Origin: Candidatus Bathyarchaeota archaeon
GTDB lineage: Archaea; Thermoproteota; Bathyarchaeia; 40CM-2-53-6
DNA: 42,908 nucleotides
Assembly: GCA_005888745.1 (NCBI GenBank)
Contig: VBBS01000028.1
Location: 1-42,908 of the forward strand
Reading direction: 5' to 3'
The translations under genes were made by a program, and so were the position numbers. How positions within the stretch are numbered: position 1 is the first letter of the stretch; the number at the start of each line of letters is the position of its first letter. A model generated the notes under the pieces. It was not told the DNA's origin, made no database searches, and was given only the letters and a program-made list of their open reading frames with translations. This document shows, piece after piece, positions 25,339-31,520 of this stretch.

Positions 25339-27618
25339 TCATACTAGTTTGGGGTGGCCCCAACCTCCACCTCCTCCGCTTCCTACACTTGGGTCGAAGA
25401 CGATGAAGACGCTGGAGGATGTTGACGTTCGCATACTCGAGTCGAGTACTGTCAAGGTCACATTGTAGCTTCCACTCGTCGAAAACGAGTGGATCAGGGT
25501 CTGGCCCGTTGCAGAGGAACCATCTCCGAAGGTCCAGTTGTACGAGTAGGGTCCGGTCCCGCCTGACGCGGTCGCAGTGAAGTTAACCGGTTGGCCCGGG
25601 ATTGATGAACCAGGAGAGATTGTAAACCGGGTTGTAAGAGGAGCTGGTGCAACGGTCTCCACTGTCTCTGCACTGTTCGCCATGTGAGACGTGTCTCCTC
25701 CATATTGCAACGTTATTCCATGATGACCGATCATGTTCGGGGTGTATGCCACAGAACAGCTGGCTGTGCCAGTGGTCGCCGTCGAAGCAAGGGTACAGCT
25801 GGGCACGTTGAAATAGCCTGTTGAGTTAGTTGCAAATGCGACACTCCCACCTGGAGTCAGAACCGTACCCGCGTCAACGTCAACGACGTTGGCGCTACAA
25901 TTTGTTGTTGTATTGTTCTGGACCGGGTTTGGCGAGCATACTACGGTCACAGAGGTAGCGCGTTTGTTAACGGTCACCGAGGCATTACCACCGCTGGCAA
26001 GGTGAGACGCGTCTCCCGGGTAGCTTCCACGGACGATAACCAAACCCACCGTCGAAGATGTGACACTAACTGAACAACTCGAAGAATTCGCGGTTGGCTC
26101 GCCCAGAGTACAGGGTCCACCCGGGCTAAAAGTTACATTTCCAATCGGAGTGACCGGGGCAGCAGACGTATCAGTGACGGTTGCGGAGCATTGAAATGCG
26201 ACACCCAAGGTGCCTGAGGATGGACAAGTTACAGTCATCCCGGTAGAATGAGCGGCCACTGTTACCGCGTGGACAACTGAAGCTGTTTCGCTAGCCGAGG
26301 TATGGACCGTCAGTTTCACGTTGTAGGTCGAGTTGGTCGAGTAGGAGTGAGTCGCTGGATTTCCCGCTCCAACAGTTCCATCGCCGAACTCCCATTGGTA
26401 ACTGTACGGCTGGATGCCACCTGTCGCACTGGCTGTGAATTGTATGGTCTGGAGGGGAGCCGGGTCAGAAGGGGTCGTGCTGAAATCGGCGGACAGTGGA
26501 GGGATGTTGAAGAACTCTGACATTGGGACCGCTGCTGCATCGTTGGATGTTAGGCTGGGCAGATTCCAGTTTACTTCTATCGTCTTGGTTAGCGAATACT
26601 GGTTGTACAGTTGTGATGAGGCGAAGCCGGTCTTGGCTACTGGGCCGGCCCAGACAGCGTACAGGCAATCTTCGGTGCTATTGTTAAGGGGACAGTAGCC
26701 TTCTCCCTCATCGAAGGTTATGAAGAGCGCAGCCCGTGTTGTCGTGAAGGTGTTGCTGTTTAGAATGTTGGGGACCAGGCTCCCGAGATAGTTATCGCCA
26801 TCTCTTACGCACGTACTGGTTCCTCCACTCGTGCAGCCGTTACTGCAACCGCTCCAGGCACGCATGTCGTTGCAGTCGTTGGGCGTAAGCCACATGAAGT
26901 TGGGGGCAGAGGGCGAGTTGAGATCGTTGATGAGAGCACAGTCTCTCACGGCACCGCAAGTGGTCGGGTTCGCGAGAACGATCTTGTTGCAACGGCTGGT
27001 GTTGTTGGTTATGTCCTGGAACGCGACGAACCCGTTATGCTCGTGCGTGTACGGCTCATGGGTCTCTGTCGCGCAGCCCGTAGCGACAGCCTGACTCTCC
27101 ATGTAGCCCTTCCATGATACACCGGCAGCCTCGAAACGGTCAGCCAGGTTCGGGCTTGTGAGCGAGCCTGCAGGTGGGTAGCAGGGGTTCTGGTTTGTTA
27201 TGGAACAGCCGGACGGAATGAAGGCACCGAGGATACCGTAGTAGTTAGGCCAGCTGGTGATTATCAAAGAAAGGTATTGGCGTGAGATGCCGTAGCTGTT
27301 CGCTAGGCTGGACATGTAGGGCGAGTTGGATCCGTTGCACGGGGGTGGGTTTCTGCCGCATATCTGGTTTATGCCCTCATTCTCCATCATGATAACAACT
27401 AGATGATCGAAATATGCCCCCGTTGGAGGAGTTAGGGCAGCGAGGTTGGAAGGGATCTGTCCGGATACTAGGACCAGCGAGATTGCTAGGAGGATGATGA
27501 GGCTTTCAGAGACGCGATTCGGGCGATGCAACCTATGGTGTCTGAGAACATTGAGAGATTGCACGGCTTGCCTGACTAATTTAGTCGAGGTGTTCGAGTC
27601 TCCCTTGAGACATCTCAT
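25339..27618 (-). CDS. Secreted phosphoesterase (phospholipase C/acid phosphatase family) with PKD and Ig-like domains
   Basis: This is an exported 759-residue protein. Residues about 39-60 are a hydrophobic export segment. Residues about 70-375 match the phosphoesterase family of phospholipase C and acid phosphatase AcpA: FDHLVVIMMENEG near the start carries the metal/catalytic region, with HEPYTHEHNG and ALFITFDEGEG later. Then follow a PKD domain (about 375-455, QWEFGDGT), two Ig-like repeats (about 460-650) and a second PKD domain (about 655-745, NWTFGDGS), ending in a Gly-rich tail. It probably hydrolyses phosphate esters outside the cell while the modules anchor it to the surface. The many cysteines of the catalytic part suggest disulfides. 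The first PKD closely resembles the PKD protein at 5883-6248. Confidence 0.9.
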   Translation of the reverse strand: MRCLKGDSNTSTKLVRQAVQSLNVLRHHRLHRPNRVSESLIILLAISLVLVSGQIPSNLAALTPPTGAYFDHLVVIMMENEGINQICGRNPPPCNGSNSPYMSSLANSYGISRQYLSLIITSWPNYYGILGAFIPSGCSITNQNPCYPPAGSLTSPNLADRFEAAGVSWKGYMESQAVATGCATETHEPYTHEHNGFVAFQDITNNTSRCNKIVLANPTTCGAVRDCALINDLNSPSAPNFMWLTPNDCNDMRAWSGCSNGCTSGGTSTCVRDGDNYLGSLVPNILNSNTFTTTRAALFITFDEGEGYCPLNNSTEDCLYAVWAGPVAKTGFASSQLYNQYSLTKTIEVNWNLPSLTSNDAAAVPMSEFFNIPPLSADFSTTPSDPAPLQTIQFTASATGGIQPYSYQWEFGDGTVGAGNPATHSYSTNSTYNVKLTVHTSASETASVVHAVTVAAHSTGMTVTCPSSGTLGVAFQCSATVTDTSAAPVTPIGNVTFSPGGPCTLGEPTANSSSCSVSVTSSTVGLVIVRGSYPGDASHLASGGNASVTVNKRATSVTVVCSPNPVQNNTTTNCSANVVDVDAGTVLTPGGSVAFATNSTGYFNVPSCTLASTATTGTASCSVAYTPNMIGHHGITLQYGGDTSHMANSAETVETVAPAPLTTRFTISPGSSIPGQPVNFTATASGGTGPYSYNWTFGDGSSATGQTLIHSFSTSGSYNVTLTVLDSSMRTSTSSSVFIVFDPSVGSGGGGGWGHPKLV

Positions 27619-28595: not shown

Positions 28596-28624
28596 GCTTC
28601 TCTGTCTCGCTCGCTAAATTCGTT

Positions 28625-28722
28625 GGGCCCGTAGCTCAGCACGGTAACGTTGGCTTTGGACAACGCCAAGGAGCACACGACTGATAATCGTGGGGTCGAG
28701 AGTTCAAATCTCTCCGGGCCCA
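28625..28722 (+). tRNA. tRNA-Ile(GAT) with a D-loop intron
   Basis: Acceptor GGGCCCG/CGGGCCC, D-stem GCTC/GAGC, anticodon stem CACGA/TCGTG with loop CTGATAA (anticodon GAT), variable GGGTC, T-arm GAGAG-TTCAAAT-CTCTC, discriminator A, CCA not encoded. The D-loop is 33 bases long; removing 24 bases after AGCACGGTA restores a normal 9-base loop. The inserted piece can fold on itself (TTGGC with GCCAA or CGTTG with CAACG). The anticodon loop itself is uninterrupted. The insertion point, between nucleotides 21 and 22, is the same as in the neighbouring tRNA-Ala. Confidence 0.93.
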
Positions 28723-28738
28723 TCAAAGACCAGGAAAA

Positions 28739-29647
28739 CTATGACTTGGCTCCAAGCTCTGCGAACGCGCGCTCCAATTCCTGATCAGGCGTGGTATCAA
28801 AGTCTGGAACTCTCTTCAACAACGCGGGCACCGTTCTTAGGTTGAAGTCCTCAGCGTGTATACTCCTCCCCAGATCCTTATGCGCTAGCGGAAACGAGAC
28901 AGGAGCACCCGGCTCAGGTCTCAGAGAAAACGGGGCGGCAATGGTCTTCTGTAGACCATTCTGGAAATAGTCCACGTAGACCTTCCCGGCTCGCTGAGCC
29001 TTGTTTCGCGAGGTTGAAACCATCTTTGGAGCCAGCCGCTCCAGCAGAACGCCCAACAGTAAGACGAACCGTCGGATGGTCTCGATGGAATATCGGGGAA
29101 CTATGGGGATGAGAAAATGAATTCCGTCAGCGCCCGAGGTCTTGATCATATGCCGCAGCTTCATCTGATCAAGTGCTGCGTGAACGGCCTCCGCGATCTC
29201 CAGTGAATCCTCGAATCCTGCGGGCGGGTGGGGATCCAGATCCACCAATACCATATCGTGAGACTCGACGTTCCGCGCGGAGGCTAGAAACTGGTTGATC
29301 TCGATACAAGCCATGTTCGCTAACCAGACCAATGTCGCCTTGTCATCACAAACAACGTGTCTAGCAGTTTTGTTGAGGCTCTCTGATCTTACGGGCGCGG
29401 TCTTGACCCAGTCGGGATGATGTGGCCAGTCCTTCTGGACGAACGACTTTCCCGGGACGCCGTGCGGGTATCGGTTCAGCATTAATGGCCGGTTGCGGAT
29501 TAGCGGGATCATCTTGGGTGCCACAGAGAGATAGTATTGGATAATGTCCGATTTCGCGATTCCTTCTTTCCTCCACATCGGCTTGTCCAGATTGGAGAGC
29601 GTGAGCTTCCGCCCATCGATCTCAACTATCTCCTCGATCTTCTTCAA
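28739..29647 (-). CDS. ligD-pol: LigD-type primase-polymerase for NHEJ
   Basis: This is a stand-alone DNA/RNA polymerase domain of the archaeo-eukaryotic primase superfamily, homologous to the polymerase domain of bacterial LigD. It fills gaps and adds ribonucleotides at broken ends during non-homologous end joining. Seen in 302 residues: the metal-binding VDLDPH (Asp136, Asp138), SGADGIH (His177) and YVDYFQN (Asp226), and the phosphate-binding N-terminal region (LSNLDKPMWR, KSFVQKDWPHHP). All three catalytic aspartates are present. The start is a TTG. It is transcribed away from Ku and ligase across a 113-base intergenic region, suggesting shared control. The length agrees with separate archaeal NHEJ polymerases such as that of Methanocella. 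Confidence 0.93.
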   Translation of the reverse strand: MKKIEEIVEIDGRKLTLSNLDKPMWRKEGIAKSDIIQYYLSVAPKMIPLIRNRPLMLNRYPHGVPGKSFVQKDWPHHPDWVKTAPVRSESLNKTARHVVCDDKATLVWLANMACIEINQFLASARNVESHDMVLVDLDPHPPAGFEDSLEIAEAVHAALDQMKLRHMIKTSGADGIHFLIPIVPRYSIETIRRFVLLLGVLLERLAPKMVSTSRNKAQRAGKVYVDYFQNGLQKTIAAPFSLRPEPGAPVSFPLAHKDLGRSIHAEDFNLRTVPALLKRVPDFDTTPDQELERAFAELGAKS

Positions 29648-29760
29648 CGTCCTTCCCTGACTCCGACGAGCCTACTGCGATACCATTAACTGTCGCCAGG
29701 TAACCCTATTATTGACGAGACTAGGAATGAGTTCGTTCTAAAAGACTGAGAGGGAGACTT

Positions 29761-30543
29761 TTGCCACCTAGAGCAATATGGAAAGGCGCGATCAGCTTCG
29801 GGCTAGTAAGCATACCCGTCAAGACGTACGGAGCGATTTCCGAGCACAAGACTGGGCTTCGTCTCATGTGTCCTCGAGATAAGAGTCCTCTCACGTTCAA
29901 GCGCATATGTCCGAAGGATGGCAAGGAGGTTCCCTGGCAAGATGTCGTCCGCGGATTTGAGGTCCAAAAGGGAAAGTATGTTACTATTACTCAAAAGGAA
30001 CTTGAAACGCTAGAGATTCGATCAGGACGACTCGTCGAGATCTTCCAGTTCGTGGACGCGGACAAACTAGATCCTGTCTATTTCGATTCGAGTTACTATC
30101 TCGTCCCGGATGAGAACGGTGAGAAACCGTATTTTCTCATGTTGGAGGCATTGGAACAAGAGGGAAAGGTCGCGGTTGGACGAGTGGTCATGCATGAGAA
30201 AGAACACCTTGTGGCTTTGAGGCCATACGAGGGCGCTATTCTGATGGAGACGCTCCATTACGCGGATGAGATCCGCAGTCCAAAGGATCTTCCGGAGCTG
30301 AAGAAGGCGCCGGAGGTGGAGAAGGAGGAGTTGGAGCTCGCTGGTCAATTGATCAAGATAATGAGGAAACCTTTCGCCTTCAAAGAATACAGGGATACGT
30401 ATCAGGAGTCTCTAATGAAACTCGTTGAGGCGAAGATGAAGGGTCAAGAAGGAGTTGTAGAACTGCGTGTTCCCGAGATCAAGCCTACGAAGAACCTCAT
30501 GGAGGCTCTTCGGGCGAGTATCAAGACACACGAAAGGCGTTGA
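29761..30543 (+). CDS. ku: Ku DNA-end-binding protein
   Basis: This is a prokaryotic-type Ku homodimer subunit of 260 residues, which encircles double-strand ends and recruits the ligase and polymerase. It opens with RAIWKGAISFGLVSIPVKTY, the hallmark Ku start, and continues through the Ku core (EVPWQDVVRGFEVQKGKYV, FVDADKLDPVYFDSSYYLVP, GRVVMHEKEHLVALRPYEG, LHYADEIR). The C-terminal tail is short (KSLMEALRASIKTHERR-like), as in minimal bacterial Kus. The start is a TTG at 29761 with GAGGGAG just upstream. Its stop overlaps the TTG of the ligase gene (TTGA), so both are translated from one mRNA. Confidence 0.96.
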   Translation: MPPRAIWKGAISFGLVSIPVKTYGAISEHKTGLRLMCPRDKSPLTFKRICPKDGKEVPWQDVVRGFEVQKGKYVTITQKELETLEIRSGRLVEIFQFVDADKLDPVYFDSSYYLVPDENGEKPYFLMLEALEQEGKVAVGRVVMHEKEHLVALRPYEGAILMETLHYADEIRSPKDLPELKKAPEVEKEELELAGQLIKIMRKPFAFKEYRDTYQESLMKLVEAKMKGQEGVVELRVPEIKPTKNLMEALRASIKTHERR

Positions 30544-31520
30544 CTCTCTTTGACAAGCGTCCTATACGTCCGATGCTCGCCAAGACCGGCAAGGCGTTTG
30601 ATGATGAGAACTATTTTTTCGAGCCGAAATGGGATGGGCTCAGAGCCCTCCTATTCCTCCGCGAGAGAAAGCTCGAGCTCCAGAACAGAAATCTGAGAGA
30701 TGCGACCGAATCCTATCCTGAGCTTCAAAAGGTCAAAGACAGCATCAGAGCAAAGACGGGGATCATAGATGGCGAAGTCGTCGTCCTTGGAGAAAATGGC
30801 ACGCCTAACTTTGGGCATCTTCAGGCCCGCTTCGGAGTTGAGGATCCGAAACGCGTGAGCATTCTCGCCAAGACCACACCTGTAACGTACGTTGCTTTCG
30901 ACCTTCTACACATCGACGGCCAAGACGTGACTAGCTGGCCGCTTGTCAATAGAAAGAGGCGGCTCAAATCAATCATTAAAGATGGTCCGTACCTTCTCTA
31001 CGGAGATCATGTTGAAGCGGAAGGAACCCGTTTCTTCAAAGAGGCAACAAACCGCGGTTTTGAAGGAGTAATCGCGAAGCAAAGCCAGTCCCAATACGTG
31101 CCGGGCCTACGAACAGACTACTGGATCAAGATCAAACAGATCAACACGACCGACTGCGTTGTCGTCGGCTTCAGCGAGGGAGAGGGCGCACGAGTTCCGA
31201 CTTTTGGCTCTCTGATTCTTGCTGCATATGACAAGGCTGGAAAGCTACATCACCTGGGAAACGTGGGCGGAGGATTCTCCAACGACAGCCTTGAACAAGT
31301 CAAGAGAAAACTCTCCAAACTGCGAACAGAGAAACCTACGATTCAAGGACCAGTGGATTCGCCAACCCCTGTAACTTGGGTCAAGCCTAGGCTTGTCGTG
31401 GAGGTTGCATACATGGCTGTTACAAATGATGGGAGGCTCAGATTTCCTCGATTCAAACGGTTAAGATCTGACAAAGACCCATTGGACTGCAGGCTTCCTT
31501 TTGGACTAGACGTATCCTGA
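30540..31520 (+). CDS. ligD-lig: ATP-dependent DNA ligase of the LigD type
   Basis: This is a 326-residue ATP-dependent DNA ligase corresponding to the ligase domain of bacterial LigD, the sealing enzyme of NHEJ. Seen: the nucleotidyl-lysine motif EPKWDGLR (Lys30), IDGEVVVL (Glu79), YVAFDLLHIDG, motif IV FEGVIAK (174-180), motif V DYWIKIK (193-199), and a C-terminal OB fold (GNVGGGFSND, WVKPRLVVEVAYMAVTNDGRLRFPRF). It lacks the N-terminal DNA-binding domain of the replicative archaeal ligase, which supports an NHEJ role. The TTG start overlaps the Ku stop codon. No phosphoesterase gene lies next to it. Confidence 0.95.
   Translation: MTLFDKRPIRPMLAKTGKAFDDENYFFEPKWDGLRALLFLRERKLELQNRNLRDATESYPELQKVKDSIRAKTGIIDGEVVVLGENGTPNFGHLQARFGVEDPKRVSILAKTTPVTYVAFDLLHIDGQDVTSWPLVNRKRRLKSIIKDGPYLLYGDHVEAEGTRFFKEATNRGFEGVIAKQSQSQYVPGLRTDYWIKIKQINTTDCVVVGFSEGEGARVPTFGSLILAAYDKAGKLHHLGNVGGGFSNDSLEQVKRKLSKLRTEKPTIQGPVDSPTPVTWVKPRLVVEVAYMAVTNDGRLRFPRFKRLRSDKDPLDCRLPFGLDVS

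Follow-up and report, generated by a model that had tools for sequence, protein, structure and literature searches.

The window analysed here is a stretch of 42,908 nucleotides (contig VBBS01000028.1 of assembly GCA_005888745.1) from a Candidatus Bathyarchaeota archaeon. It carries genes for Ku, a LigD-type ligase and a LigD-type primase-polymerase (Pol), and it raises the question of whether such an archaeon encodes a whole pathway of non-homologous end joining (NHEJ) and where the 3'-phosphoesterase (PE) of that pathway lies. An earlier note, made from the sequence alone, had described a core of separate genes with every catalytic residue visible, had seen no LigD-type PE nearby, and had left end clean-up either to another enzyme or to a gene elsewhere. 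The genome to which the window belongs as contig C33 (2.2 Mb, 75 contigs, 93% complete) encodes all four components, Ku, Pol, ligase and PE. Very probably, this Bathyarchaeota-type soil archaeon possesses archaeo-prokaryotic NHEJ made of four separate proteins encoded at two chromosomal places. The features are listed in Table 1.

Table 1. Features of the NHEJ genes. Positions are those of the window, except for the PE, which is given by genome, contig and position.
Feature	Position	Strand	Description
NHEJ polymerase (LigD-type primase-polymerase)	28739..29647	-	302 aa, TTG start; PF21686 E = 7e-74, TIGR02778 above cut-off
Divergent intergenic region, Pol/Ku	29648..29760	.	113 bases; 88-118 bases in 13 family loci showing both genes
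Conserved block within Pol/Ku intergenic region	29686..29719	.	kept in 8 same-genus sequences (10-sequence alignment)
Ku, homodimer-type end-binding protein	29761..30543	+	260 aa, TTG start; PF02735 E = 1.5e-47, TIGR02772 285.5 bits (cut-off 150)
Ku stop / ligase start overlap, TTGA	30540..30543	+	4 bases
LigD-type ATP-dependent DNA ligase, without PE domain	30540..31520	+	326 aa, TTG start; TIGR02779 276 bits (cut-off 227.75)
LigD-type 3'-phosphoesterase (PE), outside the window	G000:C36:26972-27379	+	135 aa; PF13298 E = 5.1e-38

The three genes of the window are intact, separate open reading frames (ORFs), and family profiles together with alignments to solved structures bore out the earlier description of their identities and catalytic residues. 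Ku is a single small protein of the homodimer type with the Ku70/80 beta-barrel core (PF02735, TIGR02772), as in prokaryotic Ku, and a solved bacterial Ku was matched over most of its length (174.6 bits). Binding of DNA ends by a Ku dimer and recruitment of the ligase are predicted. The ligase was matched by PF01068, PF04679 and TIGR02779, and among the three ligase matches of the genome it alone exceeded the TIGR02779 cut-off. Its best solved relative is the LigD ligase domain 1vs0 (156.6 bits), and it keeps KWDG (aligned to 1vs0 as the KxDG nucleotidyl-Lys motif), EGVIAK and WIKIK, as an NHEJ ligase does. For Pol, the best solved relative by sequence is 5dmu ('NHEJ Polymerase', 160.6 bits), a Methanocella enzyme (PMC4797286); DxD, SGxxGxH and a third Asp are kept in the alignment to it, as in LigD primase-polymerases. 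A multifunctional LigD has its Pol, PE and ligase domains in one polypeptide, and here they lie in separate ORFs.

A PF13298 search of the whole genome, a check proposed in the earlier note, returned exactly one PE, on contig C36. The statement that no LigD-type PE lies nearby is therefore right for the window contig and wrong for the genome, and of the two alternatives offered for end clean-up, the second, a gene elsewhere, is supported by this intact PE. Among solved structures, it is nearer to 3p4h (154.6 bits) and 3p43 (141.3 bits) than to the Methanocella PE 5dmp (110.0 bits), with bacterial LigD 3n9b at 124.2 bits. The structures 3p4h and 3p43 are the compact PEs of Korarchaeum and Methanosarcina. 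Structures of compact archaeal PEs are mentioned in PMC8656161. In the C36 sequence, H25, H31, D33, R35, H67 and Y71 are spaced exactly like the catalytic residues H40, H46, D48, R50, H82 and Y86 of the Methanocella PE (PMC4797286); with the PF13298 (LigD_N) match, this places the protein among LigD 3'-phosphoesterases.

The surroundings of the PE were compared among eight further loci from seven genomes of the same family. One flanking gene was common to all eight, and the other, resembling succinate dehydrogenase, was present in four. Since flanking genes are shared across the PE loci of the family, the C36 PE is taken as a native gene of the lineage. Contamination of either contig, the one with the core or the one with the PE, was rejected, as gene order is shared with relatives of the family.

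The layout of the core was examined in 21 sampled genomes of the window's family, 15 of which have Ku. The six Ku-negative genomes are all at most 82% complete, so that the absence of Ku from them is unsure, and all ten family genomes that are at least 85% complete have it. Ku and ligase overlap by four bases, TTGA or ATGA, in 15 of 15 loci (window included), and Pol diverges from Ku in all 13 genomes with both genes on one contig; Pol is on a separate contig in G097, and G040, whose Ku stands at a contig end, yielded no Pol. None of the 15 Ku-positive family genomes has a fused PE. The TTGA overlap, the 113-base divergent gap and the three TTG starts of the earlier note proved correct in coordinates and strands. 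At the homologous position, the start codon of Ku is TTG in 12 of 15 loci, ATG in two and CTG in one; that of the ligase is TTG in nine and ATG in six of the same 15, in which the window is counted; and that of Pol is TTG in nine of 13, ATG in two, CTG in one and not alignable in one. Since TTG and ATG replace one another at a given start site, the TTG starts were rejected as an oddity. Ku and ligase may be co-translated, the conserved block between Pol and Ku may hold divergent promoter elements, and the Pol and Ku promoters may be under shared control.

All four genes are under strong purifying selection and are maintained, since every computable ratio of nonsynonymous to synonymous substitution rates (dN/dS) was far lower than 1. 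In comparisons against the window, the values were 0.010-0.041 for Ku (7 comparisons), 0.032-0.065 for Pol (6 comparisons with unsaturated dS) and 0.093-0.146 for the ligase (8 comparisons). The PE gave 0.05-0.10 in two comparisons; in the remaining comparisons, dS was saturated. Ku evolves several-fold slower than the ligase gene that overlaps it (dN/dS of about 0.01-0.04 vs 0.09-0.15), and among near relatives Ku identity was 96-98% vs 74-87% for the ligase.

The distribution of the components was examined in a class sample of 151 genomes and a phylum sample of 398, both even draws from larger groups rather than censuses. In the class sample, Ku was found in 36 genomes. Pol was over the cut-off in 36, two of them without Ku (G043, G095), and the NHEJ ligase likewise in 36, two of them without Ku (G092, G125). 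PE was found in 113 genomes, in 112 of them over the cut-off. Thirty of the 36 Ku-positive genomes have all four components over the cut-off. In four of the remaining six (G040, G061, G088, G098), the absent component lies at a contig end or across one, and two (G097, G106) show no PE. Ku matches in the phylum sample were confined to 25 genomes: 21 in the class, three more above 130 bits and one weak (24 bits).

Among genomes at least 90% complete, the Ku-positive ones were larger (medians 2.2 vs 1.6 Mb; 22 vs 68 genomes, Mann-Whitney p = 3e-8), and the same was seen within family f11 alone (2.35 vs 1.7 Mb; 12 vs 19 genomes, p = 2e-4), with sizes rounded and shared ancestry left uncorrected in both comparisons.

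The Ku-positive genomes of the other families in the class (n = 21) have a different architecture. Pol and Ku lie on the same strand of the same contig in 21 of 21, with as much as roughly 3 kb between them in G089, and the ligase is on that strand in all 19 genomes where it was located on that contig. In all of these genomes but G072 (20 of 21), a single ORF encodes both ligase and PE. These operons hold the same four domains, in the same class, as the window genome, but there Pol and Ku share a strand and ligase and PE one ORF, whereas in the window's family Pol diverges and the ligase has no PE. The PE of the window's family must come from another locus, or its NHEJ does without one.

The fusion of PE with ligase elsewhere in the class is the best argument that PE takes part in NHEJ, and we consider it somewhat probable that the unlinked C36 PE works in the pathway. 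Several points weigh against this assignment. The PE is unlinked to the core, and two Ku-positive family genomes, G097 (87% complete) and G106 (68%), show none. Stand-alone PEs were also found in 79 of the 115 Ku-negative genomes of the class, a frequency that suggests that the first job of PE may differ from NHEJ. In a PE tree built on few columns, 12 of 13 family PEs form one clade (100/96) near stand-alone PEs; the tree leans to a grouping with these (P value of the approximately unbiased test, p-AU, 0.685), and grouping with operon-fused PEs was not rejected (p-AU 0.42).

The same observations would fit a core of Ku, Pol and ligase that joins ends without PE, or with ends cleaned by another phosphatase or nuclease, while the stand-alone PE does some other repair job. 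Besides the PEs of Ku-negative genomes and the two PE-lacking family genomes, the want of any core-linked PE speaks for it: the 1 kb downstream of the ligase gene showed no PE remnant, either in the window or in nine relatives (best match E 3.4). By the same search, a decayed PE adjoining the ligase was rejected. However, PE is present in 13 of the 15 Ku-positive family genomes, the two exceptions are incomplete, and the PE-ligase proteins of 20 of 21 genomes in other families tie PE to the pathway. A PE-free core is thus doubtful, without being far-fetched. Together with participation of the C36 PE stands the wider proposition that complete NHEJ is widespread in Bathyarchaeia, in roughly one in four of the genomes sampled and chiefly in larger ones, and occurs in two architectures: a co-directional form with Pol, Ku and a Lig-PE fusion, and the rearranged form of the window's family, with a PE-less ligase and dependence on the lineage's stand-alone PE in trans. 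For this whole proposition, the chances appear evenly balanced.

The PE searches and tree also gave some observations apart from this question. One genome has two stand-alone PE genes (G035:C13 and C50; L222 and L223), and another has two adjacent PE matches (G127:C23). The PEs of family f14 (L115, L116, L122, L123, L132, L136) branch among those of bacteria as a distinct clade with long branches (100/99).

The origin of the system was addressed with trees of sequences with at least 75% domain coverage, thinned at 85% identity within groups (Ku from 159 to 61, Pol from 119 to 63, ligase from 102 to 64, and a first PE set from 82 to 52). For the PE tree, a second selection of 80 sequences was thinned at 93% likeness (80% for bacteria). 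Euryarchaea were represented by the Methanocella Pol only, with no Euryarchaeal Ku or ligase. The window's family forms one clade for Ku (100/100), Pol (100/100) and ligase (99/96). In the Ku tree, this clade joins other Bathyarchaeia and one genome of another class weakly (77/71), a join flagged as long branches meeting. In the free Pol tree, other families of the class stand with Actinobacteria and Verrucomicrobia sequences (87/73), apart from the window's family; this speaks against a single class origin, but not significantly, as the united tree was not rejected (p-AU 0.53) and had a slightly better likelihood. In the ligase tree, the ligases of the window's family and of other Bathyarchaeia occupy one side (100/97), joined there by a very long-branched bacterial sequence (L208). 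Uniting the window's family with the other class families without L208 was not rejected (p-AU 0.131), and a quick tree with L208 removed gave this union a support of 95 in the Shimodaira-Hasegawa-like approximate likelihood ratio test (SH-aLRT). The set united in these tests also includes L185, a genome from a different class of the phylum.

The pattern that the earlier note named as refuting, with each gene placed inside an unrelated bacterial group of its own, was not seen in these trees. Their deep branching is weakly supported and does not establish a common origin; on these sequences, the trees neither demonstrate nor reject one origin shared with the rest of the class.

Such genes in an archaeal assembly could also stem from a recent bacterial transfer, or from a contig that is foreign or wrongly assembled. 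The closest sequence families are of bacterial type, bacteria-archaea transfer of NHEJ is reported in PMC7719229, and the free Pol tree places other class members with Actinobacteria and Verrucomicrobia. Against this, the family is monophyletic in the Ku, Pol and ligase trees, and the bacterial Ku proteins found are about 40% identical at most to those of the family. Genes for archaeal CDC48, EF-1 and zinc-finger proteins adjoin the NHEJ locus in 8 of 11 loci from named records, some of which duplicate genomes of our labelled sample and are not independent; of the remaining three, one shows a rearrangement and two are cut off by the end of the contig. The nearest named loci have Ku 95-98% identical and come mostly from 'Candidatus Bathyarchaeota archaeon BA_*' and 'Crenarchaeota archaeon 13_1_40CM_*' metagenome bins, and the named close relatives of the window are "Candidatus Bathyarchaeota" soil genomes. 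The family-wide clades and the stable neighbourhood led to the rejection of a recent bacterial origin, and this explanation, foreign contig included, is highly improbable; in an ancient form, a transfer may have predated the diversification of the family. A contig binned as Verrucomicrobia AV52 (L042, QHOM01000312.1) has Ku 98% and Pol about 91% identical to those of the window in the same divergent layout, and is most likely a mis-binned archaeal contig.

The conserved genes might also serve a process other than chromosomal repair, such as defence or the integration or circularisation of incoming DNA. Ku does occur on mobile records, with matches in 686 of 72,556 plasmid and 81 of 50,697 phage records. 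At this locus, however, no mobile-element gene was recognised among the 10 neighbouring ORFs scanned, the neighbourhood is stable and of housekeeping character, and the dN/dS of Ku is very low, which makes such a use highly improbable.

Chromosomal repair by archaeo-prokaryotic NHEJ, in contrast, has close parallels among known systems. In Methanocella paludicola, Ku, Pol, ligase and PE are separate archaeal proteins, as in the window genome, and its Pol is the top solved-structure match of the window Pol. There, the PE gene shares an operon with those of Pol and ligase (PMC4797286), whereas in the window genome Ku and ligase overlap, Pol adjoins but diverges, and PE is unlinked. The Methanocella Pol falls beside a bacterial sequence in the Pol tree and not with the window's family. 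Bacterial LigD with Ku holds the same three LigD domain families, which in the window system are spread over three genes with no fusion. Split NHEJ of Actinobacteria (Nonomuraea and Embleya records; L201, L208) resembles the window in its separate Pol, ligase and Ku genes and divergent promoters, but in L201 Ku diverges from a ligase-Pol pair, while in the window Pol diverges from a Ku-ligase pair.

Within the phylum of the window organism, a complete NHEJ set is reported for Nitrososphaerales, acquired by their ancestor (PMC7554672, 2020). Two closed genomes of family f60 (L183, L184; 3.0 and 3.4 Mb), probably Nitrososphaerales, carry Ku and Pol, which converge, unlike the divergent pair of the window. 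No NHEJ ligase was found in about 1.2-1.5 kb on each side of their Ku domain.

The earlier view of an archaeal NHEJ core in separate genes stands. Its rarity is less apt, given Ku in 36 of 151 class genomes, a layout common to the family and the Nitrososphaerales set of PMC7554672. In the literature, Ku with a LigD ligase domain was counted in ten of 243 archaeal genomes (PMC7719229), and 19 archaeal Ku proteins are listed in PMC11936186. A 2021 review names complete archaeal sets for Methanocella alone (PMC8708640), and a review of March 2026 describes archaeal NHEJ as exclusive to Methanocella (PMC12993045). No earlier report of Bathyarchaeota NHEJ was found in the open text of the papers searched, which included PMC7554672, PMC11334424 and PMC12993045 and excluded subscription papers and preprints.

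Two other features of the window lie near the locus. Just past the 3' end of Pol, at 28624-28724 (+), ARAGORN called an unusual tRNA whose anticodon, 'caac', has four bases; it is probably an intron-containing archaeal tRNA misread. At 25339-27618 (-), a large, probably secreted protein combines a PF04185 phosphoesterase with PKD and Ig-like domains; despite the shared name, it is unrelated to the LigD PE.

How the four proteins may act together is carried over, in every biochemical step, from the enzymes of Methanocella and bacteria (PMC4797286, PMC8656161). By this analogy, Ku dimers would thread onto both ends of a double-strand break and recruit ligase and Pol. Pol would attach at the recessed 5' phosphate and carry out gap filling with strand displacement, preferring ribonucleotides. 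The stand-alone PE, supplied from the second locus, would trim over-filled or 3'-blocked ends, and the ligase would seal the nicks.

Bathyarchaeota NHEJ is therefore a known kind of system, with ordinary parts and a somewhat unusual layout, in an under-reported lineage. The class counts would correct the Methanocella-only picture of archaeal NHEJ. If the PE of the window's family does act in trans, the family would be a natural test of whether PE needs tethering to the ligase. In either case, the fused and free PEs of the class are paired natural variants for asking whether the tethering of end-trimming matters.

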